This document shows, piece by piece, positions 192 through 26,158 of a stretch of 26,310 nt of DNA (position 1 is the first letter of the stretch; each line of letters starts with the position of its first letter). The stretch is taken from the IMG/VR virus record IMGVR_UViG_3300013004_000159, positions 1-26,310 of that record, one strand, 5' to 3'. This stretch comes from a virus. The translations under genes were made by a program, and so were the position numbers. The notes beneath the pieces were generated by a model. The model was given only the letters and a program-made list of their open reading frames with translations, did no database searches and was not told the DNA's origin.

Positions 192-995
192 ATGAAACAC
201 TTAAAAACATATAAATTATTTGAATCTGAATTTTTTACAATCAGTGATGAGAGAAGAAAAAAACTAATTGATTATATAAATAGTAGTTTAGATGGCGCGG
301 ATATGGATTTTTCTTCTTGGATATATCAAAATATAATTCGAGGAAAAGAAGAACATACAGAACTTAATGATTTTATTCAAAAATTATCTCCTAATTGGAA
401 AAAAATACTTGATGAATACTTAGCTAAGTATAAAAGTGGAGTAATGAAAATTGGACAAGATGACCAAAATGAGTGGTTTGGTGTAAATTATAACTCAAGT
501 CTTAAACAAAAAGAAGTAATAGGTGATCAGGAGATAACAAAAAACTTTTATGTAACATTTGAGAAAAGCGAAGACAACCTGAAAAGATGGTTCAATGGAC
601 TCGAAACTCTTATAAGTGACTTTTACAAAGCTTGCACAGAAGGTGAATTAAAAAACTCGGCAATTTCTTTCAAATGTGGATATGATGCTAAACATTTTAT
701 AGAAGACAATGACCATCTAAAGTTTTATTGGTATAAAGATGATGATAAAAATAAAGTATTAGAAGTATATAATAATTGGTTGAAGAAAACTGGTATACAA
801 ACTAAGAAAAGAGCTTATGATTTTGGAATAGACACTGCAAAAGGTAGAGATAAAAATAGCTTTGGTCTAATGGTTGCAACTAAGGTGAATGACCAGTTTC
901 AAAAACTTAAATCACAGTATGGGAAAAAGTTTACATCGGAACAATATGCAGATTATATAATAGATATGTTAAACAAAACAAAGTTTAAAATATGA
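192..995 (+). CDS. Unknown protein with N-terminal head-targeting-like tag
   Basis: This is a 267-residue, Lys/Asp/Glu-rich soluble protein with no membrane segment and no motif I recognise. Its first residues, MKHLKTYKLFES, follow the same pattern as the N-termini of the proteins at 19193 and 19947 (MKHIRTFENY, MRFIRTFESY). The pattern resembles the T4 capsid targeting sequence (MKTYQEFIAEA in IPIII), so packaging into the head is a possible role; this is inference. The body contains several aromatic-rich stretches (about residues 160-200) and ends in an amphipathic segment with YADYIIDMLNKTKF. Its stop overlaps the next start in an ATGA, which suggests translational coupling. Confidence 0.75.
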   Translation: MKHLKTYKLFESEFFTISDERRKKLIDYINSSLDGADMDFSSWIYQNIIRGKEEHTELNDFIQKLSPNWKKILDEYLAKYKSGVMKIGQDDQNEWFGVNYNSSLKQKEVIGDQEITKNFYVTFEKSEDNLKRWFNGLETLISDFYKACTEGELKNSAISFKCGYDAKHFIEDNDHLKFYWYKDDDKNKVLEVYNNWLKKTGIQTKKRAYDFGIDTAKGRDKNSFGLMVATKVNDQFQKLKSQYGKKFTSEQYADYIIDMLNKTKFKI

Positions 996-8758: not shown

Positions 8759-9322
8759 CTATTTTTGTTCTTCATCTTTCATTTTTTGATTAAATTCATC
8801 AATCTCCTTCTTAACATCCATCATTTTTTGATCCATTTCTTTTTTCTTATCTTGAATGGATTTTCCTATCTCTAAAATCTTCGCAGATTTTTGAGCTAAT
8901 TTTGTATTTAGGTCGTTGATATTTGATTTGGTTAAAAGTTTAGTCTCTTCTTTGTCTAATAATGACAACTCTTCTTGAAACTCTTGAATTTTGAGTTTGT
9001 CTTTTGTTCTTTCATCCTGAAGATGACTAACTTCTCTTTCTAATTTTTTAAGAGTTGAGTACTCAATAAGAAAAGGATTCCTATCCTGTTCAGGACCTGA
9101 TTCTATTTGTCCAATTATTGACTTTAGTTTTGACTCAACATCTTTATCGGTGAGTTTATCATCTTGATAAACAGCATCAATCTGTGCCTTTTTTTGATTA
9201 AATTCAGTAAATTGGTCTTCAAGAGCATTCATTTTCTCTTTTGACATCTTTACATCTGGCTCATCAGTGTCTATAATTTCAAGTTTCTCAATAAACTTCT
9301 GATAGTTAAAAACATATTTCAT
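8759..9322 (-). CDS. Coiled-coil protein with head-targeting-like N-terminus
   Basis: This 187-residue protein is almost entirely helical and charged. Heptad-like Leu/Ile/Met spacing covers about residues 20-185, with long Lys/Glu/Gln runs, so a coiled-coil rod or oligomer is likely. The N-terminus MKYVFNYQKFIEKLE follows the M-K-aromatic-hydrophobic pattern shared by other proteins here, and also recalls the T4 scaffold and internal protein starts. It lies 5 bases after the stop of the 1012-residue protein and is probably on the same mRNA. A scaffold-like or internal head role is possible but unproven; no enzymatic motif is visible. Confidence 0.7.
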   Translation of the reverse strand: MKYVFNYQKFIEKLEIIDTDEPDVKMSKEKMNALEDQFTEFNQKKAQIDAVYQDDKLTDKDVESKLKSIIGQIESGPEQDRNPFLIEYSTLKKLEREVSHLQDERTKDKLKIQEFQEELSLLDKEETKLLTKSNINDLNTKLAQKSAKILEIGKSIQDKKKEMDQKMMDVKKEIDEFNQKMKDEEQK

Positions 9323-9327
9323 TTTCT

Positions 9328-12300
9328 TTAAGTAAATTTAACCGTAGTTGGCTTCCCAGCGGCTTCTAAAGCAGATTGGATATCCTCAAAACCACCATGT
9401 ATTTTGATAGCAGTTTTTAATTTATTGACATCATCATTAATATCTACAGCTTTAGTTGTAACAGTTTCTTTACCCTTTACATCTTCTTTTGTCTCTTTGA
9501 TAAGCCAAAACATTCTTTTAGTAATAAATTTCATATCTTCAACTTTCTCAGGTTCAGCTCCGGAAGACACACTATTAATCTTAAGTGGTAGTTTATTATT
9601 AACTATACACTCTAAGAAGTTATTTTTAGAAATGATTGTACCTCTTACTTTTTTTCTAACTTCTAAATCCATATCACCATCACCTTTCTCAGTTTTGATT
9701 GATTCACCATCAAATACCTTTAGCAAATAATTCTTAAATGTTAAAAATGAACTAGAATATGATATGTAATAGAAATCACCAACTACATTCTGAATAAAGA
9801 AATAATATGTAACATCTTTATTTTTATCATCAACACCATCAACTTGTAAACATTTTCCGCTAAAGTCTTGCTCTTTAATAAAATCATCACCTTCTCCAGA
9901 TTCAGCATCTGGACCACCCTTAATACTTTCAGGTTTGACAAATTTATAAATTGACTGTTTTATCAAAGCTGCTTTAGAGTAATTATCTTTCAGATCTAAC
10001 TCACCAGTTGTTGGATTTTTCCAAGACAAATCAGCTTCTGGTAATCCTTTGAAGTTTTCATCGCTCATATCACCAAAATATCTATCAAGCATCTTTTGTT
10101 GAGCTCCTTTCTTAAATGGTTCTTCACCATCTAACATTTCCGACATAAATTTTCTCAAAGCAACACCAGCTCCTCTTTTAAGAACATTACCTACTCTAAT
10201 TTGAGTATTTTTGCTAAAAATTGGTTGGAATTTTCTTTCACCCATAATCTTTACAACAGCATCGTTCCAAATAGCAAATGTTTTCTTATGTCTATATGGT
10301 CCCTCAGTTTGAGCATTTGGATCACCACCACCACTTCTACCAAAAGGAATATACTCATTGTATACAGATCTAGACACCTTACCACCGGTTCTCGCACCAG
10401 GAATAGTATTATTTGTGTGTAATCCATAAGCTCTATTGAAAATTCTTACAATGTTCATTATTGGATCTATACCATCTAATACAACAGAATCTTTTGTCTC
10501 AGCAATTTTCTTTTCTAAGTTGACTTTAATTTTTTCAACTTCTGATTCTTTCATAACCCAAGCATTTAGGTCCATATTCTTACCCCACCAATCTTGTATA
10601 TCGTTGGCTAGTTTCTTTGGCATAATCTTTTTAGGATCACCAGACTCAGGAGCAGATCCACCCTCAGGCTTTTCACCAGATTCCGGTGTATTTTCTTTAG
10701 TCTCTGGAGTTACTTCGTCGGCTTCAATAATCATTTTAACAAATTTATCATAACCTAACAATAACTTCTCTTGAGTTTTTTCTTCTTTATTTTCTGGCTT
10801 ACCAAACTGTAACTCAGGGTTAATCACTCCTCTCATAGTAGCGTTGAAATTAACCAACTCTTTCATCATTTTATCCCAAAGAACTAAATTCTCTTGGTTA
10901 GAAGCAAACATTTTTTTAATTTCATCATTTGCAGCATTCATTACGTCATTCTTAACACTAATTGAATAAAGTCCAACAATTTTCTGAGCTATATTATCAG
11001 GTCTTGTTAAAAAGTTATCAAGTCCTTCTTTAACAACATATTTGTTTCTAAAATTCTCATCTCTTACTAATGTGTATATCTTCTGTATAGGAGATTTTGT
11101 CTTGGATTGAGAAATCTTTTCCTCTGGACTTAATTTAAGATAAGCTTCTAATTCCTCAATAGCACTAGGTTCACTCTTAAATAAATTATAAAGTGGTTTA
11201 ATAGCTTGATTAATATGCAATCCTTTAGTCTTTTTAGTAAAATCCCACTCAATACTATCACCAGTTGATATATTTTTAGGAGCTTCTCCATCTTTATAAT
11301 CAACCTCTTCGTAAATATAAGACTCTCTTGTAGAAGATGGACCAGAACCTGTTTTAGGTGCTGTGATTTTAGCAAGTTCTGCTTTATTTTTAGCACTAAC
11401 ATCTATTGTTTTTTTCTCGTCTTTCTCAGCTTCAGCTTCTTTTCTAAGTCGAGCTCTTGTTCCCTCACCAGCATTTGTGTTTTTACCAGCTTTCTTTTGT
11501 TCTTCAACCCACTTAGCTAATTTTTCTTTATAAATATCATCAACTGATTTACTAATGTTAGAAACGAATTTTCTATCACGAGCATATTTTGCCACAGCAT
11601 CGTCATCAGAAGTGGCACTCAAGCCTCTTGACTCACCACCATATCCAGGACCAGAATAAACTGGAGATCCTTTGATAGCAGCATAGAAATAAAACTTCTT
11701 TTCCTGCATTTCGCCATATATCTTAACTACACTTAAAACACTTTTTAAGTTTTCTATACAAAGATTAAATAATTTATTCTCTGTTTTTTCTTGAAAAGTT
11801 TCTTTCTTCTTATAATCATCAAGATTAATACCCTCTAAAAACTCTAAGAACTCATTTAATTGTCTTAAAAGTTCGTTCTTTTTTTCGATTGGTTCTACTT
11901 CTTCTACCTTTTTTATAGTTTCTTTTGTTAAATCTATCAAACTAGCTAAATTTACAGGATCAATTCTACCTTTAAATTTCTTAAGGTCATGTAGGTGAGC
12001 AACATTCATCTCTAATCTATTTAAGAAAGCATAAATAGTAACAGTACCTAACATTTTTTTGTCTTCTATATCAAGCTCAGCTAACTGTGATGACATTAAA
12101 ATGTCATCAAACTCAGCTCTTAATTTTGAAATAAGTGGTTTAATTAAAACCATATTAGCCCCAATTTGAGCCTTTCTAATAATTGCATTTACTAATCTAC
12201 CTACTAATGAATCACCCCAAGTAATTTCATTACCCATTGCGCCAGATCCGGACATTGTTTCCTGTATTAGTTTATCTAATTGATAGTCTAACTTTTTATC

Positions 12301-12366
12301 CAATTCAACTATTCTATTCTCATTTATTTGTTTAAGATAGTTGTTTCTCGAATTGATATACTTCAT
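9328..12366 (-). CDS. Large unknown protein (1012 aa), probable virion component
   Basis: No catalytic motif is recognised. The first third is helical (TWGDSLVGRLVNAIIRKAQI near residues 49-68, and DLKKFKGRIDP near 143). A Gly/Ser-rich stretch (GSPVYSGPGYGGESRG) precedes a Lys/Ala/Glu-rich linker near 290-340. An acidic Pro/Glu/Gly linker lies near 555-580, followed by a conserved-looking block (AYGLHTNNTIPGARTGGK, then a GPYRHKKTFAIWNDAV stretch) and a beta-rich part with YYFFIQNVVGDFYYISYSS. The start MKYINSRNNYLKQINE fits the shared N-terminal pattern. From memory, large proteins with a similar central block occur in other Bacteroidota T4-like phages without known function. A candidate late promoter 20 bases upstream supports a structural or internal head role. 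Confidence 0.75.
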   Translation of the reverse strand: MKYINSRNNYLKQINENRIVELDKKLDYQLDKLIQETMSGSGAMGNEITWGDSLVGRLVNAIIRKAQIGANMVLIKPLISKLRAEFDDILMSSQLAELDIEDKKMLGTVTIYAFLNRLEMNVAHLHDLKKFKGRIDPVNLASLIDLTKETIKKVEEVEPIEKKNELLRQLNEFLEFLEGINLDDYKKKETFQEKTENKLFNLCIENLKSVLSVVKIYGEMQEKKFYFYAAIKGSPVYSGPGYGGESRGLSATSDDDAVAKYARDRKFVSNISKSVDDIYKEKLAKWVEEQKKAGKNTNAGEGTRARLRKEAEAEKDEKKTIDVSAKNKAELAKITAPKTGSGPSSTRESYIYEEVDYKDGEAPKNISTGDSIEWDFTKKTKGLHINQAIKPLYNLFKSEPSAIEELEAYLKLSPEEKISQSKTKSPIQKIYTLVRDENFRNKYVVKEGLDNFLTRPDNIAQKIVGLYSISVKNDVMNAANDEIKKMFASNQENLVLWDKMMKELVNFNATMRGVINPELQFGKPENKEEKTQEKLLLGYDKFVKMIIEADEVTPETKENTPESGEKPEGGSAPESGDPKKIMPKKLANDIQDWWGKNMDLNAWVMKESEVEKIKVNLEKKIAETKDSVVLDGIDPIMNIVRIFNRAYGLHTNNTIPGARTGGKVSRSVYNEYIPFGRSGGGDPNAQTEGPYRHKKTFAIWNDAVVKIMGERKFQPIFSKNTQIRVGNVLKRGAGVALRKFMSEMLDGEEPFKKGAQQKMLDRYFGDMSDENFKGLPEADLSWKNPTTGELDLKDNYSKAALIKQSIYKFVKPESIKGGPDAESGEGDDFIKEQDFSGKCLQVDGVDDKNKDVTYYFFIQNVVGDFYYISYSSSFLTFKNYLLKVFDGESIKTEKGDGDMDLEVRKKVRGTIISKNNFLECIVNNKLPLKINSVSSGAEPEKVEDMKFITKRMFWLIKETKEDVKGKETVTTKAVDINDDVNKLKTAIKIHGGFEDIQSALEAAGKPTTVKFT

Positions 12367-15179: not shown

Positions 15180-17324
15180 ATGGCGATTGTAACAACAGAA
15201 AGACAAATGGTCTTCACAACTAAATTAGTCGATGAAGCAACAGATAAGATAAATGATGGTATTGTAGTCAAAAGATATCAAAATCCTTGGTTAAAATCAG
15301 AAGTTGGTCTTAGAAGGGCTGGTGCATCATTTAGAATGACACCTGATGAACAACAAGAATATGTTAGATGTGCATTAGATGTACATTATTTTGTAGAAAA
15401 ATATTGTAAAGTAAAAAGAGAAGATGGATCAGTAGGTTCAATTAAACTAAGAGACTATCAAAAAGAAATATTAGATAACTTTGTAAACAACAGATTTAAC
15501 ATATTGATGGCATCTCGACAAGTTGGTAAAACAATTTCCTCCGCTATTTTCATGTTACACAAAATTCTATTTGATAATGACAAGAACATAATGATTGTTG
15601 CTAACAAAGGTGATACTGCTGTAGAAATTGTCGATAAGATTAAATCAATCTATACATTACTACCATTCTTTCTAAAACCCGGTATTAAAACTTGGAATCA
15701 AAAGTCTCTAACATTTGAGAACGGATGTAGAATCAAGACATCAGCTAGAACAAAAACACCAGCTATTGGTTTTACCATTGACGTTCTTTATTTAGATGAG
15801 TTTGCTCACATTCCATCCAACATTATAGAACCATACTACACAGCAGCCTTTCCAACAACCGCTGCCGTACAAAACTCAAAGATTATTATTACATCAACTC
15901 CAAATGGAATGAACTTATTCCACAGATTATTAACAGATGCTGAGCGACCAGTTGGTGATCCACAGAAAAATAACTATAAACCAATGAGAGTTTATTGGTA
16001 TCAAGTACCTGGTAGATTTGTAACTTATGTTAGATTGAATAATCATAAATTATATGAAAATGGCTTAGAAAAAGAAGATGTGTTAAACAATATAAAAGAA
16101 AGATGGGGTAGTTTAACCAAAATTGATATGGGATATAATATGGATTTACAAAAAGATGTTATATCAATATACAATAATGATGTTTGTTCAGATGAAGAAG
16201 TAAAAACTTTACAACTATTAAACTCAAAAGAGTTAGAAATATCAATTAGGGAAATAGCCGAAGTAACTACATGGAAAGAAGAAGCAATAAAAGATATTGG
16301 TGGTGAAGATGCGTTTAATCAGGAATATGGTCTAAGATTTATAAACTCCAGTAAATCACTTCTAAACGAAGGTATAATAGAAGATTTATTAAAGAATAAA
16401 AAGAACTATGAATTTGAGGAAATATTTGAGTTTAATAAGTTCATAAAATTTAGTTATGAAGGACTAAAATGGGTAGAGGATGATGATTTGTTTGTGCCTG
16501 TCAGGAGAAAGGATTATAAAATTATTTTATCTGTCGATATATCAGAAGGATTAGGTCAAGATTACTCTGTTATAAATATGTTTAGAATAACAAATAAACC
16601 AAAAGATTTAGTAGAAATTCAGAAACTATCTTATAAATCAATTGTGGACTTCTTTAGACTTGAACAGATAGGTCTTTTTAGAAGTAATATTATATCTGTC
16701 AAACAATTAGCCGAACTTCTTTATGTACTAGTATTCGAGTATCTTAATCCAGAAAATGTTAAAATAGTTTTAGAGTTAAATAACTACGGAAATGCTTTAC
16801 TCGCCGAGATGCCACACGTTTTTGATGGAAATAATAACTATGGATCTAGTGTATTTATTAGATACAAACACAGAGCAGACTCAACCGAAGAAAAGATTGG
16901 TCTAAAAGTAGGTGAAAATAAAAATATGTTGGTAAAAGATTATCAAGACCTAATGTTATCTAAAGGATTCTCTATTAACAACGAAGAAACAATAAGAGAA
17001 ATCACAACATTTGTAAAACACACCACATCAGCCGGTAACATAAAATACGCAGCTGACGTAGGACATGACGACTGTGTTATGACAATAGTTAACACAACAT
17101 CTATATTTCCTAAATCCGAATTCAAAGAAATGGTAGATGAATATATGTCTAAATCAATAGATAAAGAAATGGTTACTTACATAAACCAATGCCTATCAAA
17201 TATTGATTACGTAGAAGGTGTAGACTATAGTCAAGTTTTAAGAGTTAGAAGACAAGTACAGAATCGATATAAGTCTGGTAGTAACTATAATGGTAGTATG
17301 GACTGGTTTGGTCGTAAACCTTAA
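15180..17324 (+). CDS. Terminase large subunit, gp17-like
   Basis: This 714-residue DNA-packaging motor ATPase and nuclease has Walker A ASRQVGKT at 111-118 and Walker B VLYLDE with D206-E207. A coupling motif region follows (ITSTPNGMN). The RNase H-like nuclease has acidic residues D453 (SVDISEGLGQDYS), E532 (VLELNNYG) and D630/D631 (DVGHDD). It pumps DNA into the prohead and cuts the concatemer. In T4 gp17 (610 residues) Walker B D255 and nuclease D401 are 146 residues apart; here the gap is 247. An extra segment of roughly 80-100 residues lies after VPGR, about residues 285-365. The stop shares a TTAA with the convergent ClpS gene. Confidence 0.95.
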   Translation: MAIVTTERQMVFTTKLVDEATDKINDGIVVKRYQNPWLKSEVGLRRAGASFRMTPDEQQEYVRCALDVHYFVEKYCKVKREDGSVGSIKLRDYQKEILDNFVNNRFNILMASRQVGKTISSAIFMLHKILFDNDKNIMIVANKGDTAVEIVDKIKSIYTLLPFFLKPGIKTWNQKSLTFENGCRIKTSARTKTPAIGFTIDVLYLDEFAHIPSNIIEPYYTAAFPTTAAVQNSKIIITSTPNGMNLFHRLLTDAERPVGDPQKNNYKPMRVYWYQVPGRFVTYVRLNNHKLYENGLEKEDVLNNIKERWGSLTKIDMGYNMDLQKDVISIYNNDVCSDEEVKTLQLLNSKELEISIREIAEVTTWKEEAIKDIGGEDAFNQEYGLRFINSSKSLLNEGIIEDLLKNKKNYEFEEIFEFNKFIKFSYEGLKWVEDDDLFVPVRRKDYKIILSVDISEGLGQDYSVINMFRITNKPKDLVEIQKLSYKSIVDFFRLEQIGLFRSNIISVKQLAELLYVLVFEYLNPENVKIVLELNNYGNALLAEMPHVFDGNNNYGSSVFIRYKHRADSTEEKIGLKVGENKNMLVKDYQDLMLSKGFSINNEETIREITTFVKHTTSAGNIKYAADVGHDDCVMTIVNTTSIFPKSEFKEMVDEYMSKSIDKEMVTYINQCLSNIDYVEGVDYSQVLRVRRQVQNRYKSGSNYNGSMDWFGRKP

Positions 17325-18135: not shown

Positions 18136-18188
18136 AAGTACAAATATATATCAAAATTTTAAAATATAAAAGTTGGTAAATAATATTT

Positions 18189-18197
18189 TTATATATA
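18189..18197 (+). promoter_or_regulatory. Candidate late promoter for membrane coiled-coil pair
   Basis: TTATATATA lies 18 bases before the ATG at 18216 within an 80-base A/T-only-like divergent spacer. A second ATATATATC copy at 18143-18152 lies near the minus-strand HAD start. The upstream A6/TTTT block is not seen. Confidence 0.45.
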
Positions 18198-18215
18198 TCA
18201 AAAAATAAAAATATT

Positions 18216-18632
18216 ATGAAATTTGATATAAAAACCATAATTATACTAGTTTTATTAGGAGTTTCTTTACTATTTGGATACAAATGGTTCTTTAGTAGTG
18301 ATCCATCTTTAAAACAAAGGTTGAAAGAAATAGAGGCTGAATATAATGCCTTAGAAGAAAAGAAAAAAGAATCTGACAAAAAGATTAAAGGTTTAGAGAT
18401 TGAGTTTGTAGATTTACAGAAAAAGGATAAAGCTCTTCAAGAAAAAGTGTTGAAACTAGAATCAGAAATTAAAATAGCTGAGCAAAACGCCACAAATTCT
18501 AAAAACAATTTAGATAAAATGAAAAAAGATTTAGAACAGACAAAACAAAAAATAGAAGAGTTTAAAAAGAATCCACCAAACAGAACTGGGGATGATTTGT
18601 TAAATTCAATAAAAAATAAAACTCAGAAATGA
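18216..18632 (+). CDS. Membrane-anchored coiled-coil protein, i-spanin-like candidate
   Basis: This 138-residue protein has a single N-terminal membrane segment at about residues 8-24 (TIIILVLLGVSLLFGYKWFF). The long Lys/Glu-rich coiled coil at about 30-115 carries heptads of Leu/Ile, and the tail is Asn/Pro/Lys-rich. A short basic N-terminus predicts N-in topology with the coil in the periplasm. This is the layout of inner-membrane spanins (Rz), which help disrupt the outer membrane at lysis. The overlapping next gene (ATGA) also encodes an exported coiled-coil protein. No lysin or holin was identified beside it, so the lysis role is inference from architecture only. Confidence 0.6.
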   Translation: MKFDIKTIIILVLLGVSLLFGYKWFFSSDPSLKQRLKEIEAEYNALEEKKKESDKKIKGLEIEFVDLQKKDKALQEKVLKLESEIKIAEQNATNSKNNLDKMKKDLEQTKQKIEEFKKNPPNRTGDDLLNSIKNKTQK

Positions 18633-19132
18633 AAAAATTAATTAGTTTATTAGTATTCTTAGTATTTACACTAACACTATCCGCACAATCAATTGAATAT
18701 CCAAGATATGAAGTAGATTCACTTGGTCAAAAAGTAATTGTATTAACCATTGAACAAGCTCAGAAATTAGACAATAATTCAGACCTACTATTACTTTTAG
18801 AAAAATATGCTCAGCAAATATCAGAATATGACTCAATATGTATTAAAACTGTAAATGACAAACAAAAAGTAATTGATTTACAAAAAGTTGAGATAAAAAC
18901 TCTTAAAGAGAATCTTGCAATAAAAGACAAAGAAATTGAAAATCTACAAAAGAGAGTAAACGAATATATTATAAAAGAAGCTTTTTGGGTAGAGCAAATG
19001 AAATTAAAAGATGAGACAATTGAAATAAAAGATAAGCAAATCAGAGGACTAAAAGGTAAAATGATTTGGGGTGGTGTCGGTGGAGGCGTCGCTATTATAG
19101 GTCTAATTTTAGGATTGGTACTTGTCAATTAA
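18629..19132 (+). CDS. Exported coiled-coil protein with signal peptide and C-terminal membrane anchor
   Basis: This 167-residue protein has a classical signal peptide (MKKLISLLVFLVFTLTLSAQS, predicted cut near residue 20). An exported domain with YPRYEVDSLGQKVIVLTIEQA and a coiled coil at about 60-140 follow. A Gly-rich membrane segment closes it (IWGGVGGGVAIIGLILGLVLV, about 145-166), leaving almost nothing after the membrane. There is no lipobox Cys, so it is not a typical o-spanin or a lipid-anchored u-spanin. It may pair with the preceding protein through the coils. Alternatives are an envelope-modifying or superinfection-exclusion protein. Confidence 0.6.
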   Translation: MKKLISLLVFLVFTLTLSAQSIEYPRYEVDSLGQKVIVLTIEQAQKLDNNSDLLLLLEKYAQQISEYDSICIKTVNDKQKVIDLQKVEIKTLKENLAIKDKEIENLQKRVNEYIIKEAFWVEQMKLKDETIEIKDKQIRGLKGKMIWGGVGGGVAIIGLILGLVLVN

Positions 19133-19138
19133 ATTGAT

Positions 19139-19167
19139 AAAAAATGAGTTTTAATACTTAATATATA
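19139..19167 (+). promoter_or_regulatory. Strong candidate late promoter for Gly/Gln-repeat protein
   Basis: Six A and T, then GAG, TTTT (19149-19152), six bases, and TAATATATA at 19159-19167. The layout equals that at 2608-2637 and 23147-23175, with GAG in place of CAC. The ATG is 25 bases further on. Confidence 0.65.
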
Positions 19168-19192
19168 ATTAATAAAAAATATCTAAATTAAA

Positions 19193-19885
19193 ATGAAGCA
19201 TATTAGAACATTTGAAAATTATCGTCTAAAGAAAAACAGAGAAGATATAATTAGAGAGTCTGTTTTACAGGTGAACGATATATACAAAGTTAAAACAATG
19301 ATTGATATTCCTCAGTCGTTGATTAATGCGTACGTTAAAAAAGTTAAAGACGATACTGGTAAAAATTTACGTCAGTTTTTTGGTGATGTTGATATCGCTG
19401 AAGAAATCATTAAATATATTAACATGAACAATCTGGATGTTGATAAAATTCCAGGAAACGCTATAATGGGTGGTCCACAAGGTCAAGCACAAACTCAACC
19501 AGAAGGTCAAGCACAAACCCAACCACAAGTTCAAGTTGAAGCTCAACCACAAGGACAAGCACAAGAAGGTCAAGAAGGTCAAGAACAAGCTCAATCACAA
19601 GGACAAGCTCAACCACAAGGACAAGCTCAACCACAAGGACAAGCTCAACCACAAGGACAAGCTCAAGAAGGCCAATTTGAAGAACCTCAAGGTCAGGGAC
19701 AAGCTCAAGATCAGGGACAAGGTCAGGGACAAGCTCAAGGTCAGGGACAAGCTCAAGATCAGGGACAAGGTCAGGGACAAGCTCAAGGTCAGGGACAAGC
19801 TCAAGGTCAGGGACAAGCTCAAGGTCAGGGACAAGCTCAAGGCCAAGAAGAAGAGGAAGAAGGCGAAGAAGAACTTCCAGCTTAA
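19193..19885 (+). CDS. Gly/Gln/Ala-rich repeat protein with head-targeting-like N-terminus
   Basis: This 230-residue protein has two parts. Residues 1-95 are ordered-looking, starting MKHIRTFENYRLKKNRED, with helices (IPQSLINAYVKKVKDDTGKN, then VDIAEEIIKYINMNN). From about 98 on the chain is low-complexity: GQAQPQ repeats, then GQGQAQ and DQGQ units, and it ends in an acidic run with five Glu and EEELPA. The second part is predicted to be disordered. The N-terminal pattern matches the tagged proteins at 192 and 19947. A strong promoter suggests it is abundant. A DNA- or protein-condensing internal head protein is one idea; no homologous function is recognised. A GAAA-loop terminator follows. 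Confidence 0.75.
   Translation: MKHIRTFENYRLKKNREDIIRESVLQVNDIYKVKTMIDIPQSLINAYVKKVKDDTGKNLRQFFGDVDIAEEIIKYINMNNLDVDKIPGNAIMGGPQGQAQTQPEGQAQTQPQVQVEAQPQGQAQEGQEGQEQAQSQGQAQPQGQAQPQGQAQPQGQAQEGQFEEPQGQGQAQDQGQGQGQAQGQGQAQDQGQGQGQAQGQGQAQGQGQAQGQGQAQGQEEEEEGEEELPA
19601..19654 (+). repeat. Tandem 18-bp repeat, three exact copies (GQAQPQ)
   Basis: The unit GGACAAGCTCAACCACAA occurs at 19601, 19619 and 19637 without a mismatch, and degraded copies flank it. It is in frame and encodes six residues per copy. Confidence 0.95.
19691..19840 (+). repeat. Tandem 18-bp repeat, seven exact copies in two-level array (GQGQAQ)
   Basis: The unit GGTCAGGGACAAGCTCAA begins at 19691, 19721, 19739, 19769, 19787, 19805 and 19823. 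A 12-bp GATCAGGGACAA unit is inserted after the first and third copies, which creates an exact 48-bp tandem duplication (19691-19738 and 19739-19786). The exactness points to recent expansion by slippage or unequal recombination. Confidence 0.95.
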
Positions 19886-19904
19886 TCAAATTAGATATTT
19901 TATG

Positions 19905-19931
19905 AACCCATCAGAAATGATGGGTTTTTTT
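19905..19931 (+). terminator. Rho-independent terminator with GAAA loop
   Basis: AACCCATCA at 19905-19913 pairs with TGATGGGTT at 19918-19926 around GAAA, then a run of T. It closely resembles the hairpin at 13367-13388. Confidence 0.9.
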
Positions 19932-19933
19932 AT

Positions 19934-19942
19934 TAATATATA
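19934..19942 (+). promoter_or_regulatory. Candidate promoter abutting start codon (TAATATATA)
   Basis: TAATATATA is placed directly after the terminator T run and only 4 bases before the ATG at 19947. This is the same arrangement as at 13396-13410. Confidence 0.45.
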
Positions 19943-19946
19943 GTAT

Positions 19947-20558
19947 ATGAGATTTATAAGAACCTTTGAGAGTTACAATGAAGATACTTTAATAGTAGTT
20001 GATGTTCAGAAATCCTTTAAGAAGTTTTTCTCAGAGATGTATCTCAATGAATTAAAGAAACATTGTAAAAACTTTAATAGTGTATATCAAGTCTGGGATA
20101 ATCATGTCGATGGTAAGATAGTTGACAAAGACTATTTATATGAAGAGGATCCAGAAATTCCTATACACAAAGATCTTTATCATTTTCCAAACCAAAAAGA
20201 ATTGATAGAAAAACGATACAATTACGACGTTGACGCCGATTTCTACAAGAAAGTTCTTGACAAAAACGTATATGAAGAAATTAGTAAAAAAGAAGAAGAT
20301 AAAACTTTAAAAAAAGGAGATATTTTTTCAACAAAAGAGGGTACAATTATTACATTTATTAATAATAAGCACGCTTGGTTTCACTGTCCAAAAAAACTCT
20401 ATGAAATTCTCACATCATTAAAAGGTAGAGAAGTTGAAATAGTTGGTGGTGCTGATTCAGAATGTTTAGAAGACATAGTAACTACCGCTGAAAGTTTAGG
20501 TGTAAAGATTAAGAGAAACTACAAATATATTTATACAGCGACAAGTTGTCCTATCTAA
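19947..20558 (+). CDS. Isochorismatase-like cysteine hydrolase with N-terminal tag
   Basis: This 203-residue protein belongs to the isochorismatase/nicotinamidase superfamily. It has TLIVVDVQKSF with D19, a later VEIVGGADSECLEDIVTTA with nucleophile candidate C173, and a possible catalytic lysine at K141 (NNKHAWFHCPKKLYEIL). The family hydrolyses amides or vinyl ethers such as nicotinamide. An extra middle section (about 60-130) with IPIHKDLYHFPNQ and EKRYNYDVDADFYKKVLD is unlike typical nicotinamidases, so the substrate is unknown. The first ten residues, MRFIRTFESY, match the tag seen on two other proteins and sit directly before the first beta strand. NAD metabolism is a plausible but unproven target. 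Confidence 0.78.
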   Translation: MRFIRTFESYNEDTLIVVDVQKSFKKFFSEMYLNELKKHCKNFNSVYQVWDNHVDGKIVDKDYLYEEDPEIPIHKDLYHFPNQKELIEKRYNYDVDADFYKKVLDKNVYEEISKKEEDKTLKKGDIFSTKEGTIITFINNKHAWFHCPKKLYEILTSLKGREVEIVGGADSECLEDIVTTAESLGVKIKRNYKYIYTATSCPI

Positions 20559-20936
20559 TTAAGTTACAGTAGCATAAACTTGGTAACCAGCTATTGTAAA
20601 GTATATAATCATATACTCAAGATGTCTATCTGGATGGTCAAAGAATTCTACTTCAACATTGAATTCTATACCTTCAATTTCAGGTATGTAATCTGCTATT
20701 TGTGCTCTGATTTCGGCCTCTACGGCTCTATTAGATATCTTTGTTTCATGTAGAAGTTTAACTAAATCAGCACCGAAGTTAGGGTCACCAAAAACCTCAC
20801 CTTTATTAGTAAAGACTATCATTTCATATTTTTGTATGATAACTCGAACTATATCATCCTCGATGACTTCGGGATCACGAAACCTTGGGTGACCTGGATA
20901 TCCAATATAAAAATCTATGAAATTAAAATTAGCCAT
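20559..20936 (-). CDS. Baseplate wedge subunit gp25
   Basis: This 125-residue protein is close in length to T4 gp25 (132). It shows the GPW/gp25 pattern: an N-terminal FIDFYIGYPGHPRFRDPEVI, the helix DDIVRVIIQKYEMIVFTNKGE, the family hallmark FGDPNFGADLVKLLHE, an AEIRAQIADYIPEI helix, and a C-terminal beta pair with MIIYFTIAGYQVYATV. gp25 joins the wedge to the first sheath ring and is thought to nucleate sheath assembly. It lies 33 bases after gp44. Its stop adjoins that of the convergent hydrolase gene. A TTATATATA element sits 6 bases before the start. Confidence 0.88.
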   Translation of the reverse strand: MANFNFIDFYIGYPGHPRFRDPEVIEDDIVRVIIQKYEMIVFTNKGEVFGDPNFGADLVKLLHETKISNRAVEAEIRAQIADYIPEIEGIEFNVEVEFFDHPDRHLEYMIIYFTIAGYQVYATVT

Positions 20937-20942
20937 TTGTAG

Positions 20943-20951
20943 TATATATAA
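20943..20951 (-). promoter_or_regulatory. Candidate promoter next to gp25 start (TTATATATA)
   Basis: On the minus strand TTATATATA ends 6 bases before the gp25 ATG, in the 33-base gap after gp44. It would allow late expression of gp25 apart from the replication gene upstream, with a near-leaderless transcript. Confidence 0.4.
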
Positions 20952-20969
20952 AATTATATACCGTCTAAG

Positions 20970-21935
20970 TTAATTTAATACGTCTCTAAATTTACCGATT
21001 ATAGTCATACCAAGTACAATTGGATCTGACACCTCTGATAATTTAATACCATAATCAGAAATAATATAATTACAATTAAATAATTTCTCAACATTAGGTT
21101 TATTCTGAGACATATACCATTCGATAAATGGTTTACCTAATAGTTGTATCATAACATCAATTTTATCTGGTCCGAATCCAGACATCAAAAAATGATAAGT
21201 TTGCTCATAAGATACATCAGATGAGGTAACAAACTCATATAGCTTTGATTTTGTTTGTGTAGAGACATTAACAGTCTCTGATTGATTACCTCCAGAAGAT
21301 ATATAATTTTGTACCTCAACAATAATACTTCTAAAGTCTGGAAACTTTTTTGTAATAATTGAAATTAAATCTTCTTTAGGAATAGTAGTGTTCTCTTGGG
21401 GAAGAATAACATTAGTAATTCTTTTGTATATCTCCTGTTTGAGATATTTTTCTTCTTCAACATTTTGACAATCAAAATTAATCTGTGGTATTCTCGACTT
21501 TATACCTTCGGATATTTTATTGATATGGTTAGTAGTTATTATGAATCTTACATTTTTATTGTATTTTTCAATAAATGCCTTGAAAGCATCCTGAAACTGA
21601 GATGAAACTCTCTCAAACTCATCAAGAAAAATATATTTTATATCAGAATCGGTTGACATCATAGGTGTAAACTTACAAAAGTCCTCAATTTCATTTCTTA
21701 AAACATCAATTGAAGTAAAAAGAGAACTGTTAAGCTCTAAAAAAGGTTTATCTTTTGTGTACTTACCAATAAGTATTCTTGCTAATGATGTTTTACCCGT
21801 ACCATAGTGACCGTAAAATATAAAATTTTGGTTCACACCATCTTTAAAATGATTTTGTATTCTCGGAAGTAAAATTAGGTCGTCTAAATTTTTAGGACGC
21901 CACTTTTCCCATAAAAGTAAATTGTTAACTGACAT
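20970..21935 (-). CDS. Sliding clamp loader ATPase subunit, gp44-like
   Basis: The frame is open to 21974, but the ATG at 21935 (MSVNNLLLWEKWRPKNLDDL) gives the normal clamp-loader N-terminus and 321 residues, nearly equal to T4 gp44 (319). The AAA+ motifs are WEKWRPKNLDDL at 9-20, Walker A GHYGTGKT at 42-49, Walker B FLDEFE with D105-E106 (DEAD-box-like position), sensor 1 TTN at 134-136, and an SR pair at 147-148 in place of the SRC arginine finger motif. With gp62 it loads the gp45 clamp for replication; in T4 the loaded clamp also activates late transcription. gp62 and gp45 are not in the window. Confidence 0.9.
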   Translation of the reverse strand: MSVNNLLLWEKWRPKNLDDLILLPRIQNHFKDGVNQNFIFYGHYGTGKTSLARILIGKYTKDKPFLELNSSLFTSIDVLRNEIEDFCKFTPMMSTDSDIKYIFLDEFERVSSQFQDAFKAFIEKYNKNVRFIITTNHINKISEGIKSRIPQINFDCQNVEEEKYLKQEIYKRITNVILPQENTTIPKEDLISIITKKFPDFRSIIVEVQNYISSGGNQSETVNVSTQTKSKLYEFVTSSDVSYEQTYHFLMSGFGPDKIDVMIQLLGKPFIEWYMSQNKPNVEKLFNCNYIISDYGIKLSEVSDPIVLGMTIIGKFRDVLN

Positions 21936-21990
21936 ATCATGTTTATGATTTTTATTCTGTTTTGTTTTACACAACGAGAAACAAAAGTTT

Positions 21991-21999
21991 TTATATATA
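21991..21999 (+). promoter_or_regulatory. Candidate late promoter for gp15-like gene
   Basis: TTATATATA lies 20 bases before the ATG at 22020. The 84-base divergent gap to gp44 also holds this near-palindromic element on the minus strand, but 55 bases from the gp44 start. Confidence 0.5.
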
Positions 22000-22019
22000 A
22001 TTTACAAATAAAAGTAATT

Positions 22020-23132
22020 ATGATAGGTGAACATTTTAATTTTGAGGACGTTTTCTTTAGAGATCTTACAGTATGTGTACTTGATACACTCGAAGGTCAA
22101 ATAAAATGGGTAAACCGATTTTCCAAAGGCGACTACTACGTCCAAGTTCCAATTTACTACTCTCTAACCGGTGATGAAAGATTCTTATTAGATACTTTCC
22201 AAGATGATATAGTATCCGAAAATAGATTTGTTGAACTCAATACAGATCTTATACCAAGAGGTCACTTAACAATGACCGGATTTAACATTAGAGGTGACGA
22301 ATTTGCGAATCCAAATGTTTGGCTAAAAATGGTTGTTGAAAATGAATTAGAAATAAGAAAAGTTTTAGCAAAGGTAAGAGCCATTCCAATTACTGTAAAT
22401 TATGAATTGACTATAAAGTTATCTTCAGAAATTGACACATTCAAATGTAGTCAAGCAATTATGGACACACTATGGCTTTATAAATTTATGTACTTTGAGT
22501 ACAACTTTATGAATATTGATGCTGTAATTCTAATGCCAGATAATAATCAGATTCAAATGAGTAGAGAAAAAAATCTAACATCTGATAACAACATTGAGCT
22601 AAAGGCTACTTTTGAGGTACAAACTTATTATCCAGCTTTCAGAAAAGATAGAGTAAATCCTGATGGTTATCCAGTTACATATGGCGAACCACCAACAGAC
22701 CCTAATACTTATCCGGATAGTGGTACCTATACAAATCTTGTACAACCTCCAAGAACTAATCCTAGAGGTCCACTACCACCATACTTTACCTATCCAGGAA
22801 GACCATGGGATCCTAGTGATTTTCCAACTGAATGGGGATGGCCATTCCCACCAGACACTTCTTCTATTCCAATTGGAGCAACTTCAATTAGCGGAACATC
22901 AAGTTTTGGTGGATTTCCGGGGTCATCAAATCCAACGGATGACAATCCAGGTCCTAATGGAGGTGGTCCAACTCCAAACCAAGACTACTTTATCTATGCT
23001 CCGAAAAGAACAAGATGGTTTAGTAACATACTTAAGGCAAGACAACAATCTAGAACTGGACCGGCTAATCCATATAGTGCTAGCTCAGGAAATGATGGTG
23101 GAAGTAACCCACCGATTGACCCCAATGCGTAA
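22020..23132 (+). CDS. Putative tail sheath stabiliser (gp15-like) with long Pro/Gly-rich tail
   Basis: An upstream in-frame ATG at 21939 would overlap the gp44 start region and the promoter, so 22020 (MIGEHFNFEDVFF) is chosen, giving 370 residues. Residues 1-215 resemble gp15-type proteins: VQVPIYYSLTGDERFLLDTF, then LIPRGHLTMTGFNIRGDEF, IPITVNYELTIKLSSEID, an AIMDTLWLYKFMYFEYNF helix-strand, and KATFEVQTYYPAF. In T4, gp15 caps the tail and joins it to the head. Residues about 216-370 are Pro/Gly/Asn/Thr-rich and probably disordered, with PPTDPNTYPD, PLPPYFTYPGRPW and NPGPNGGGPTPNQD, which T4 gp15 lacks. A baseplate protein is an alternative assignment. Confidence 0.5.
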   Translation: MIGEHFNFEDVFFRDLTVCVLDTLEGQIKWVNRFSKGDYYVQVPIYYSLTGDERFLLDTFQDDIVSENRFVELNTDLIPRGHLTMTGFNIRGDEFANPNVWLKMVVENELEIRKVLAKVRAIPITVNYELTIKLSSEIDTFKCSQAIMDTLWLYKFMYFEYNFMNIDAVILMPDNNQIQMSREKNLTSDNNIELKATFEVQTYYPAFRKDRVNPDGYPVTYGEPPTDPNTYPDSGTYTNLVQPPRTNPRGPLPPYFTYPGRPWDPSDFPTEWGWPFPPDTSSIPIGATSISGTSSFGGFPGSSNPTDDNPGPNGGGPTPNQDYFIYAPKRTRWFSNILKARQQSRTGPANPYSASSGNDGGSNPPIDPNA

Positions 23133-23146
23133 AAATAAAAAATGGT

Positions 23147-23175
23147 AAAAAATCACTTTTTATACATAATATATA
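23147..23175 (+). promoter_or_regulatory. Strong candidate late promoter for 427-aa protein
   Basis: Six A, TCAC, TTTT (23157-23160), six bases, and TAATATATA at 23167-23175; the fixed bases are identical to those at 2608-2637. The ATG is 29 bases further on. Confidence 0.65.
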
Positions 23176-23204
23176 GAGTAAAATAAAAAATAATATTTTA
23201 AAAT

Positions 23205-24488
23205 ATGAAGAATCTTAAACTCGAATTGTTTAACTTCAAGAAGGATCTTACACTTGACCAAGAAGAGATTGCTGTAATCATAGAAGGACACATGAATGCT
23301 TGTAATGAGCACTCAGAAAAAACAATTATCAATTCTCTTAACGAGAGACTGAAGGTATTTACTTACGACAAAAAAGTCAAATCATTATTAGAAGGTCTAA
23401 ATGATGATATGAAAAGTTATGAATTGTTATACGAACTTAAGAGTTTATATAATGTTCTTAATTCACAAAACCAAGGTGAACTTTATAGACAACCAATCAA
23501 TGTATTGTTACAAACAATTAGTTTAGATTCTGAACAAGATAGAATGTCAAAAATTCTTAACGAATTGGCAGTTTATGACTGGGTTCCAGAAATTAAATTA
23601 TTTGTTCACAACTTGACTTCATCTCCAGAAAAAAGAAGCAACTTATTATCTGGTGGTAAAGGAGAGTCTATTTTTACAATTGTTGAACAAGTGGAAGATG
23701 GTCATATTGCACTTATCAAAGATTCTTGGTTTATTTTAACAGAAAATAATATTGAAAAAACTCTTCTTGAGAATCATGTTAAAGATGAAGAAGATTTAAG
23801 ATCTATGAGAACTTTAGAAACGGCTATGAAATATGCTACTATCACAGAAGATAGAATCAATTTTAGAATTTCTGAGTATTTAACATTAGGTCTTTCAGTT
23901 GCTAAGAAAGATGGTCTTTACATCAATGATGATGAGATGAACGAAGAAACAACACTTGAATCTTTATTCTCATCACCAATTATCCCTATCGTAAATAAAA
24001 ACTTCTATCCTGTCCTACAAGAAGTTTCTAAAAATATGGATAAATTTGTTGAGTTAGATGTTGTTAAAAAAGTTGGTAACTTAGTAAATCCTTATTTAGA
24101 GTGTTTTGCTTTCAATTACAAAAACAGCACTTACCTTTACAGATGTGATGAAAGATATGGTAACTCATTCTTCAAATACGAATCAGCTATTGAATTAGTA
24201 AATGAAGTTAGAAATGAACTTAACTACGACTTAACTTATTTCTATGAAAATAAATTAGGAAAAGAAATTATAGTTAAAAGAAAACTTGAGGACAAAGAAA
24301 GAGAAATTAGCTTAAAACTTGAAGACGTTCAATTTAATATTGAAAAAGTTAAAGGTTCTATCCAAATGATTGGTGAATCAGTAGTTTTAACAACAGCTCT
24401 TAAAAACTTAGAAAAAAGAAGAAATCACTTAGATGCTGAATTAAACGGTGTTAAAGAACTTCAATACAAAGAAAGAATCAAACTTTAA
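23205..24488 (+). CDS. Unknown, probably abundant virion protein (427 aa)
   Basis: No family recognised. The protein begins MKNLKLELFNFKKDLTLDQEE, is mixed helix and strand, and has no membrane segment. Around residues 145-180 there is a beta-like stretch with KGESIFTIVEQVEDGHIALIKD. The C-terminal part (about 345-427) is a charged coiled-coil-like segment with KLEDKEREISLKLEDVQFN and ALKNLEKRRNHLDAEL. The promoter has the full upstream block shared with the tail tube gene, the gene stands alone between promoter and terminator, and codon use includes many C-ending Asn, Asp, Tyr and Phe codons. These traits suggest high late expression and a structural role. It is not recognisable as the major capsid protein. 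Confidence 0.7.
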   Translation: MKNLKLELFNFKKDLTLDQEEIAVIIEGHMNACNEHSEKTIINSLNERLKVFTYDKKVKSLLEGLNDDMKSYELLYELKSLYNVLNSQNQGELYRQPINVLLQTISLDSEQDRMSKILNELAVYDWVPEIKLFVHNLTSSPEKRSNLLSGGKGESIFTIVEQVEDGHIALIKDSWFILTENNIEKTLLENHVKDEEDLRSMRTLETAMKYATITEDRINFRISEYLTLGLSVAKKDGLYINDDEMNEETTLESLFSSPIIPIVNKNFYPVLQEVSKNMDKFVELDVVKKVGNLVNPYLECFAFNYKNSTYLYRCDERYGNSFFKYESAIELVNEVRNELNYDLTYFYENKLGKEIIVKRKLEDKEREISLKLEDVQFNIEKVKGSIQMIGESVVLTTALKNLEKRRNHLDAELNGVKELQYKERIKL

Positions 24489-24506
24489 TTAAATTAATAA
24501 GATTAA

Positions 24507-24534
24507 AATCCTCAAAGAAATTTGAGGATTTTTT
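24507..24534 (+). terminator. Rho-independent terminator with GAAA loop
   Basis: AATCCTCAAA at 24507-24516 pairs with TTTGAGGATT at 24521-24530 around GAAA, followed by T6. It ends the 427-residue gene unit. Confidence 0.9.
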
Positions 24535-24559
24535 ATTTTAAAAAACTTTTAGTTAATAA

Positions 24560-24568
24560 AAATATATA
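24560..24568 (+). promoter_or_regulatory. Candidate promoter for sigma factor unit (AAATATATA)
   Basis: AAATATATA lies 2 bases before a 15-codon open frame and 55 bases before the sigma gene. AAACTTTT at 24543-24550 precedes it, but the gap is nine bases rather than six. It may be a different promoter class, as sigma must be made before late transcription. Confidence 0.35.
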
Positions 24569-24570
24569 AC

Positions 24571-24618
24571 ATGAAATCAATAGCTAAAAAGGATAAATCC
24601 TTAGAAAAAATAAGCTAA
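24571..24618 (+). CDS. Possible 15-residue leader peptide upstream of sigma gene
   Basis: An ATG directly after the AAATATATA element opens a frame of 15 residues (MKSIAKKDKSLEKIS) that ends at 24616-24618, five bases before the sigma ATG. A second ATG at 24620 gives only five codons. The peptide may be translated to couple or limit sigma synthesis, or the frame may be chance. The sequence alone cannot decide. Confidence 0.3.
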   Translation: MKSIAKKDKSLEKIS

Positions 24619-24623
24619 AATGA

Positions 24624-24989
24624 ATGTACTTAAATAACAAAGATCTCTACGTAGAAATTATCGTATCAAAAGCCCAAGGAAAACTAACAAGAAACGCCGA
24701 GAAAATGCTAGAACTTCTAGCAAAGAAAACAATCAAAAAAATGAGATACTGGTCTAATGATGATAAGTTAGACTGTTATCAATCAGGACTTTTAGATATG
24801 TTCCAAAACTGGTACAATTTTAACGAAGATAAATCAGTCAACGCATTTGCTTACTTCACAGAGGTCTTTAAGAGAGGCATTGCAAAAGGATATAACGAAC
24901 TTTATAAGAAAAAAGGTGATAACGAACATCTTATTAAATTAATATCAATAGAAGGGTCAAATGACGGAATGGGACTACACTCACTCTAA
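24624..24989 (+). CDS. Late-transcription sigma factor, gp55-like
   Basis: This 121-residue protein aligns in pattern with T4 gp55. The start MYLNNKDLYVEIIVSKAQGKL matches the gp55 YVNNKELLQAII stretch. RNAEKMLELLAKKTIKKMRYW, then DKLDCYQSGLLDMFQNWYNF and KSVNAFAYFTEVFKRGIAKGYNELYKKKG correspond to a reduced sigma region 2 that binds RNA polymerase and opens the -10 element. It ends DGMGLHSL, as related phage sigmas do from memory. T4 gp55 is 185 residues; this one lacks the long C-terminal part. gp55 directs late transcription from a -10-only promoter (TATAAATA in T4), which fits the TAATATATA elements here. An in-frame stop lies directly before the ATG, fixing the start. Confidence 0.87.
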   Translation: MYLNNKDLYVEIIVSKAQGKLTRNAEKMLELLAKKTIKKMRYWSNDDKLDCYQSGLLDMFQNWYNFNEDKSVNAFAYFTEVFKRGIAKGYNELYKKKGDNEHLIKLISIEGSNDGMGLHSL

Positions 24990-25066: not shown

Positions 25067-26158
25067 TTAAGCCTCAGTTTCGACTTCACTATAAATAGTT
25101 TGTAACATTCTATCAGAAACTAAATAAGGGTCACAGTTAGACGCTGGTCTTCTATCCTCAAAATATCCACAACCATCTACTTGAGCCTGAGCAGGAATTC
25201 TAATCGAAGTATCTCTTGTAGAAAAACCATAACTAAACTCATGAATACCTGATGTCTCGTGAGCTCCAGTCAATCTTTGTTCGTTATGTAAACCATAAAC
25301 ATCAATATGTTCCATGTGATTTGACTCTAATTTAGACATTGACTCCATAATAATATCAATACCACCTTCTTTTCTCATTTCACTTGAAGAGAAATTAACG
25401 TGACAACCTGTGCCATTCCAATCACCCTTAAGTGGTTTTGGATGTAAAGAAACATTAACACTGTGTTTCTCAGCAACTCTTTGTAAGATATAACGAGACA
25501 TCCACAATTGGTCTGAACCATTTAGTGAAGTCACTGGTCCAATTTGATATTCCCATTGTCCAAGAAGAACTTCAGCATTAACTCCAGAAATATCTAAACC
25601 AATTTCCATACACATATTCATGTGTTCTTCAACGATTTCTCGACCAATTACAGTATCAGCACCAATACCACAATAATAATCACCTTGTGGTCTTGGATTA
25701 TTAGATGAATCTAAACTAAATCCAAGTGGTAATCCAATACCCTCACCAAATGGCATATTAGGCTTATGAGTAAGTGTATATTCTTGTTCCCAACCAAACC
25801 ACGGAGCCTCACTTTTAGTAAGAGAATCTAAAGAAAGTTCTTTAACAGTCTCAGCGAGTTTTCTTCGGTGATTAGTTATATGTGGCGTACCATCAGGATT
25901 TAAAACTTCACAAAGAACAAGCTTATGTGCAGAACCTCTAAAAGGATCATTTACAACAAAAACTGGTTTCAATAGACAATCTGTATTTTCTCCTTTACCA
26001 GATTTAGCTTGTAATGTAGAACTACCATCAAAAGACCACATCGAATAGTGTTCAGGATTGTTATCTAATCCAATAGATTCATTAACAATTTTAGTTTTAC
26101 TTCTGAGTTGTTGGGGTTCAGACCCATCTAACCAAATATACTCTTGTTTAATTTTCAT
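25067..26158 (-). CDS. Glutamine synthetase, type II
   Basis: This 363-residue protein is a complete GSII-type (eukaryote-like) enzyme that makes glutamine from glutamate, ammonia and ATP. Motifs in order are WSFDGSST at 41-48, the metal-binding PWFGWEQEY with E124 and E126, NAEVLLGQWEYQIGP from 194 with E196 and E203, GDWNGTGCHVNFS with H253, RLTGAHET at 295-302, SIRIP near 318, and YFEDRRPASNCDPY at 332-345 with E334 and R337. All catalytic positions I can check are kept. One position often Pro in this family is Leu (NAEVLL). GSII is found in some Bacteroidota and other bacteria, so host origin is likely. It would raise nitrogen supply during infection. Its upstream region lacks TAATATATA. 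Confidence 0.95.
   Translation of the reverse strand: MKIKQEYIWLDGSEPQQLRSKTKIVNESIGLDNNPEHYSMWSFDGSSTLQAKSGKGENTDCLLKPVFVVNDPFRGSAHKLVLCEVLNPDGTPHITNHRRKLAETVKELSLDSLTKSEAPWFGWEQEYTLTHKPNMPFGEGIGLPLGFSLDSSNNPRPQGDYYCGIGADTVIGREIVEEHMNMCMEIGLDISGVNAEVLLGQWEYQIGPVTSLNGSDQLWMSRYILQRVAEKHSVNVSLHPKPLKGDWNGTGCHVNFSSSEMRKEGGIDIIMESMSKLESNHMEHIDVYGLHNEQRLTGAHETSGIHEFSYGFSTRDTSIRIPAQAQVDGCGYFEDRRPASNCDPYLVSDRMLQTIYSEVETEA

Follow-up and report, generated by a model that had tools for sequence, protein, structure and literature searches.

The window, by which we mean the whole 26,310-base stretch of virus DNA analysed here, encodes five proteins (A to E, Table 1) that a first-pass annotation had singled out for their similar N-terminal starts. 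It also holds T4-like genes for the large terminase, the tail sheath and a gp25-like protein. The terminase is of the gp17 type, which places the genome among the T4-like phages; it shares 78% identity (tblastn) with LR745206.1 and has matches in 2,529 phage records. LR745206.1 (634,780 bp) is also the nearest complete genome to the window, with DNA identity of up to 78%, followed by LR756502.1 (642,428 bp) among the close relatives and by the more distant LR756504.1 (636,363 bp) and LR756501.1 (735,411 bp). The window is a piece of a T4-like huge phage with complete relatives of 635-642 kb. Judged by record number and size, the four genomes named are presumably huge phages described by Al-Shayeb et al. 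(PMC7162821), who give Bacteroidetes as the predicted hosts of the five genomes larger than 634 kb.

Other genes of the window include a glutamine synthetase-like phage gene, for which the Pfam match spans the catalytic domain only in part, and an Rz-like spanin gene with a second, small gene after it whose product starts in a signal-like way; the two are a possible lysis pair and lie directly upstream of the tagged genes D and E.

Table 1 Location of the features discussed (window coordinates unless another sequence is named; arrows mark cut-like sites)
Feature	Coordinates	Strand	Description
Protein A	192..995	+	267 aa; tag MKHLKTYKLFE
Predicted cut in A	codon end at 224		after E11 (LFE↓S)
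Protein B	8759..9322	-	187 aa; weak tag MKYVFNYQKF; coiled-coil-like body
Protein C	9328..12366	-	1012 aa; propeptide-like N-terminus MKYINSRNNYLK... (begins MKYINSRNNY)
Predicted cut in C	codon end at 12259		after E36 (IQE↓T)
Large terminase	15180..17324	+	gp17-type
Stretch common with contig IMGVR_UViG_3300034284_002584 (L363)	18180..24882		99.98% identity
Possible lysis pair	18216-19132	+	
Protein D	19193..19885	+	230 aa; tag MKHIRTFENYR; Q/G/A low-complexity tail
Predicted cut in D	codon end at 19258		after E22 (IRE↓S)
Protein E	19947..20558	+	203 aa; tag MRFIRTFESY directly before predicted first beta strand TLIVVDVQ
Glutamine synthetase-like gene	25067-26158	-	
Portal gene	continuation of L363		
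Protease-scaffold gene	L363:6001-8127		
gp23-type capsid gene	L363:8206-9924		
Fused protease-repeat protein of a relative	L019:8546-10669 = W01 198546-200669		candidate huge-phage scaffold
Stand-alone S77-like ORF	W04:C1:11386-11787	-	178 aa
Small tagged protein	L013:17266-17520 (W01 93266)		
Small tagged protein	L047:4294-4539 (W02 80294)		
Tagged 2H phosphoesterase	W01 449,573		
T4 gene 61.1	NC_000866 18966-19130	-	MKTFKEFIKED

Five window proteins and their N-termini

All five starts (at 192, 19193 and 19947, and at 9322 and 12366 on the minus strand) read as the annotation had quoted them. Its statement that the bodies are unrelated is likewise borne out, the sole match among them being a 16-residue stretch of B and C at E=0.02; no PHROG or Pfam family was found for any of these bodies, that of A included. 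Membership in a five-member tag set stands only in part. Scored with a cross-validated tag profile of nine columns, trained on other genomes only and used with a 9-bit threshold, A (24.1 bits), E (15.6 bits) and D (13.8 bits) are strong members, and three of the window's 28 genes pass where about 0.06 would be expected by chance from internal methionines. Protein B, which has no strict (L/I)xE site, is a weak member that reaches only 4.8 bits itself and has clearly tagged orthologues (MKYLKKYKIFLE↓A, 19.8 bits; MKYLKGYSSFNE↓D, 11.3 bits). Protein C does not match the profile and is propeptide-like only. Aromatic residues are spaced as Y4 and F7 of T4 in A, B, D and E and in most tagged proteins, but not in C, where the first aromatic is missing.

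The (L/I)xE motif is present in A, C and D, and cutting itself is inferred from it. For A, the 10 distinct N-termini found in environmental relatives all carry MKHLK(T/S)Y(K/Q/H)(I/L)FE↓(S/N). The clearest case is the family of D (80 loci), whose 29 distinct environmental N-termini all read MK(H/Y)(I/V)(R/K)x(F/Y)Ex(F/Y)R and lead through a variable stretch to I(K/R/S)E↓(S/A) and a near-invariant body, the cut-like site being invariant in 29/29 variants. M-(K/R)-Y-(I/L) is retained in orthologues of C, as is a cut-like site; although the propeptides differ among relatives, (I/L)xE is found again immediately ahead of the conserved body GDSL(V/L)GRL (IQE↓T in the window, ILE↓T in environmental sequences, INE↓S and IKE↓E in the relatives).

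Protein E keeps the tag pattern in 31 distinct N-termini and, because no (L/I)xE site lies near its tag, it is probably targeted but not cut, as far as its sequence can tell. Uncut cargo is possible, since a T4 tag with aspartate at position 10 is still targeted but no longer cut (PMC9026906). The AlphaFold model of E (mean pLDDT 64) has a helix at residues 2-9 and then a strand at 14-20, and no fold match was found for it in the PDB. A motif-based guess that E is an isochorismatase-type hydrolase was discarded, as neither Pfam nor searches by PDB sequence and by fold supported it. In LR756501.1 a protein resembling E starts MKVIKFSDYLKES and continues with ILVVVDVQ.

Scale, specificity and cargo of the tag

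As the window record is only a fragment, the further carriers of the tag that the annotation had anticipated were sought, and genome-wide counts taken, in complete relatives. Their ORFs were called with a simple longest-ATG rule, a crude caller that leaves gene starts approximate, and the relatives are mutually related rather than independent genomes. The tag profile identifies 89/964, 115/995 and 45/955 proteins at 9 bits or more in three complete relatives, and 44/896 in LR756501.1 (W04; 647 of 735 kb covered), against 2.0, 2.0, 1.1 and 0.8 for the internal-methionine null. A strict tag pattern yields 34, 44 and 16 proteins in the three complete genomes, where a mean of 0.57, 0.83 and 0.33 is expected when N-terminal columns are shuffled between proteins and 0.0-0.4 from internal methionines. 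No excess is obtained with the same profile in other phages with an S77 protease (PAU, 1/300; PTm1, 0/320; KVP40, 2/394). An aromatic at profile column 0 was obligatory in the search, so its invariance is partly by construction. A T4-like regular expression used alone does not place the huge-phage tag above the null, probably because extra residues precede the aromatic core. Variant tags of the form MI(K/R)(K/T)(F/Y)K(I/L)FE occur in LR756501.1, together with a more T4-like MK..F..(F/Y)(I/L)NE.

The annotation had further argued from differing codons that selection acts on the peptide. The codons do differ among the window's tags, and in the relatives tag codons are near genome usage, with a mild A-rich preference, and the DNA upstream of tagged genes is barely more alike than that of untagged genes (similarity 0.37-0.42 vs 0.35-0.37); a copied DNA cassette is therefore ruled out. 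Grouped by body, the 298 tagged proteins, the window's five included, form 242 groups, of which 203 are singletons, and thus satisfy the criterion for a capsid targeting sequence (CTS) of a short tag on otherwise unrelated proteins.

Most of the tagged cargo belongs to no family. Pfam scans of cargo representatives do find NUDIX, SET, GNAT, T4-type RNA ligase and poly(A)-polymerase head domains, as well as DHH, NFACT-R, HNH, RNase T, dephospho-CoA kinase, FMN reductase and 2'-5' RNA ligase/Acb1. The last match probably stems from a 2H phosphoesterase of relative W01, whose body, with two PHLT motifs, directly follows MKLKKYKQFIKE↓S and which resembles the anti-CBASS protein Acb1. Many small tagged proteins of W01 and W02 have a common motif like DILLELEDDGF, which suggests a fast-diverging paralogous cargo family.

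Downstream of the tag, the motif (L/I)xE(S/A/G) occurs within residues 8-32 in 29.4% of tagged and 6.1% of untagged proteins, and in 2.5% further along the same tagged proteins. This roughly five-fold enrichment is seen only with glutamate at P1, no comparable enrichment being found with D, Q, N, K, S or R at that position. About 70% of tagged proteins lack the strict motif in residues 8-32, and in pairs of orthologues the (L/I)xE sites align no more often near the N-terminus than in the background (11/26 N-terminal vs 10/26 elsewhere).

The resemblance to the start of T4 internal head proteins, which the annotation had pointed out, holds in the aromatic spacing and often in the (L/I)xE motif, and it withstands a blind search: among 274 T4 ORFs, the profile trained on huge phages ranks ipI, ipII and ipIII second to fourth. 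Its top match there is gene 61.1, and gp61.1, ranked above the known internal proteins, may by this sequence likeness be an unrecognised packaged protein.

Prohead protease, capsid genes and scaffold-like repeats

A gp21-like protease, for which the annotation had proposed a search elsewhere in the genome, was found beside a gp23-type capsid gene on the overlapping contig L363; by that contig's coordinates its start is about 6.9 kb past the window end. Gene families on L363 were assigned by homology to genes of the relatives. In four huge phages and on this contig a Peptidase S77 domain adjoins gp23, in the order Portal_T4, protease, Gp23, that is, between the portal and major capsid genes. 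The protease meets the criteria for Peptidase S77 (T4 gp21) in profile, motifs, fold and gene position. The PF03420 match has E-values of 1e-4 to 4e-6 in four genomes, with a score under the curated cut-off, and the motifs NRNxR(I/L)Y, GExxHP and SSR align with T4 gp21. The AlphaFold model is of low confidence (pLDDT 55); its fold search returned the T4 gp21 chains of 5jbl at ranks 1-3 (prob 1.00) and human cytomegalovirus (HCMV) protease as a weak fourth, and a PDB sequence search with the protease gave no real match. At its N-terminus the capsid protein resembles T4 gp23 over a stretch that ends in a propeptide-like site, INE↓N.

The 735-kb phage also encodes a second, stand-alone S77-like ORF, possibly a protease paralogue. 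Two small tagged proteins of W01 and W02 repeat in their bodies, after the tag, the mature N-arm of the capsid protein (approximately SGMGxVxxAQPxxLxGTTG) and could be capsid-arm mimics.

In four of four huge phages and on the overlapping contig, the protease is extended by a long domain in which a 14-residue unit, NIAYSEYIAENLDK for example, is repeated about ten times in tandem. Each repeat holds YxEY(I/L)AE, which is near the T4 tag YQEFIAEA and includes the cut motif. Internal matches to (F/Y)xx(F/Y)(I/L/V)xE number 11, 11, 11 and 14 in the protease-scaffold proteins of the four genomes; runners-up have at most two in three genomes, and in LR756501.1 seven are found in a 1,691-aa protein and three in another. 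With a profile of the tag only, the protease-scaffold protein ranks top in 4/4 genomes, but column-permuted profiles equal its count in 5-9% of trials and the likeness of tag and repeat is for this reason suggestive only. Among other phages, the PTm1 protease (589 aa) is joined to a long domain, and those of T4, KVP40 and PAU are unfused.

Interpretation and comparison with known systems

What the analysis establishes is the tag with its scale and specificity, a cut motif specific for glutamate, the presence of protease and capsid genes, and the correspondence with T4 IPI-III. From these we infer, with high confidence, that the tag is a T4-type CTS serving a much larger cargo set that includes enzymes. 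The basic-hydrophobic start with two aromatics three apart, MK-(H/Y)-(I/L)-K-x-(F/Y)xx(F/Y), would dock a protein on the assembling prohead core; in many cargoes the gp21/S77-family protease would then cut after (L/I)xE, freeing the mature protein inside the head, and the cargo would travel in the virion, with injection alongside the DNA probable. For T4 it is known that targeting depends on residues 4 and 7 (Y, F) of the CTS and cutting on residues 8 and 10 (I, E), that the CTS alone suffices for a protein to be packaged in the head, and that internal proteins co-purify with the scaffold gp22 (PMC9026906). We found no virion proteome for these phages in the literature, and packaging and delivery are thus inferred. 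Against a CTS stand the absence of such a proteome, the sub-cut-off Pfam score and low-confidence model of the protease, the failure of C to fit the tag core, the many tagged proteins without a strict site, the lack of excess among aligned sites of orthologues, and the approximate gene starts.

Several cargoes are enzymes able to act during infection (NUDIX, RNA ligase, GNAT, SET), and E and others are tagged without a cut site, as might be expected if the tag directed proteins not to the head but to some other site that the phage builds inside its host cell, such as a replication compartment or membrane. We regard such a destination as improbable, as it leaves unexplained the match to T4 internal proteins, the glutamate-specific enrichment of (L/I)xE and the cut rule common to the capsid propeptide. 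That B and C adjoin the tail sheath gene in the window and its relatives could instead point to a tail or baseplate assembly signal; given that the sheath, gp25-like and other tail genes of the window are untagged and that the tagged genes are for the most part distant from the tail module, we hold this to be very unlikely. The mild A-rich codon preference, lastly, would suit a by-product of translation initiation in which A-rich starts yield MK-rich N-termini and the peptide has no role. This we can scarcely credit, because column shuffling falls far short of the strict-pattern counts (0.3-0.8 against 34, 44 and 16), PAU, PTm1 and KVP40 have no excess, and the downstream cut motif would go unexplained.

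Within the CTS interpretation, the repeats suggest how docking might work. Each carries the aromatic pair and (I/L)AE motif of the T4 tag, and a tag mimicking one scaffold repeat would let proteins join the core as extra scaffold units, to be freed by the same cuts. Such mimicry is plausible and unproven as a mechanism, and the full proposal, by which up to about 100 different proteins, possibly counter-defence and RNA-repair enzymes among them, enter the host with the DNA in this way, is one we advance only tentatively, doubting it slightly more than we believe it. Were it true, the gain of about 12 codons would turn any gene into virion cargo.

Most huge-phage genes have no known role, and the tag assigns some 5-12% of them to a single class of probable virion cargo, predicting which proteins act first in the cell; by inference, huge phages probably deliver a large set of preformed proteins to their hosts alongside the DNA. 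Since IPI, IPII and IPIII of T4 each block a restriction enzyme (PMC12373910), the tagged proteins amount to a shortlist of counter-defence candidates. The T4-type CTS is known as a signal class, as are at least 10 internal proteins in T-even phages (PMC12373910); what is new is the scale of the tag, the lineage in which it occurs, the enzymes among its cargo and the fusion of the protease to a scaffold-like domain whose repeats resemble the tag. No paper reporting such a tag set in huge phages was found, within incomplete coverage of the literature.

Cleavage after glutamate by a distant gp21 homologue is also the fate of N-terminal propeptides of several head proteins, namely inner-body and ejection proteins, in the giant phages phiKZ and SPN3US (PMC5694885, PMC9026906), the phiKZ rule being S/A/G-x-E (PMC13282480). 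Those propeptides, unlike the huge-phage tag, are mostly much longer, often exceeding 100 residues in SPN3US, and no comparable common short tag has been described for them. Herpesviruses have protease-scaffold fusions, and the huge-phage protein resembles them in joining a maturation protease to a long C-terminal scaffold-like domain, in keeping with the weak HCMV fold match, but differs in that this domain is built of 14-residue repeats with YxEY(I/L)AE. The closest correspondence is with the CTS of T4 IPI-III, in the MK start, the aromatics three apart, (L/I)xE↓(A/S), the unrelated bodies and the gp21-type protease; the comparison concerns the tag only, the bodies not having been compared directly with the internal proteins. 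The huge-phage tag departs from that of T4 in the one to three extra residues, often H/Y-I/L-K, that usually separate MK from the aromatic core, in tags without a cut site, in enzymes as cargo, and in cargo number, T4 having three internal proteins and the T-even phages together at least 10 reported (PMC12373910), compared with 45-115 per genome in the huge phages.
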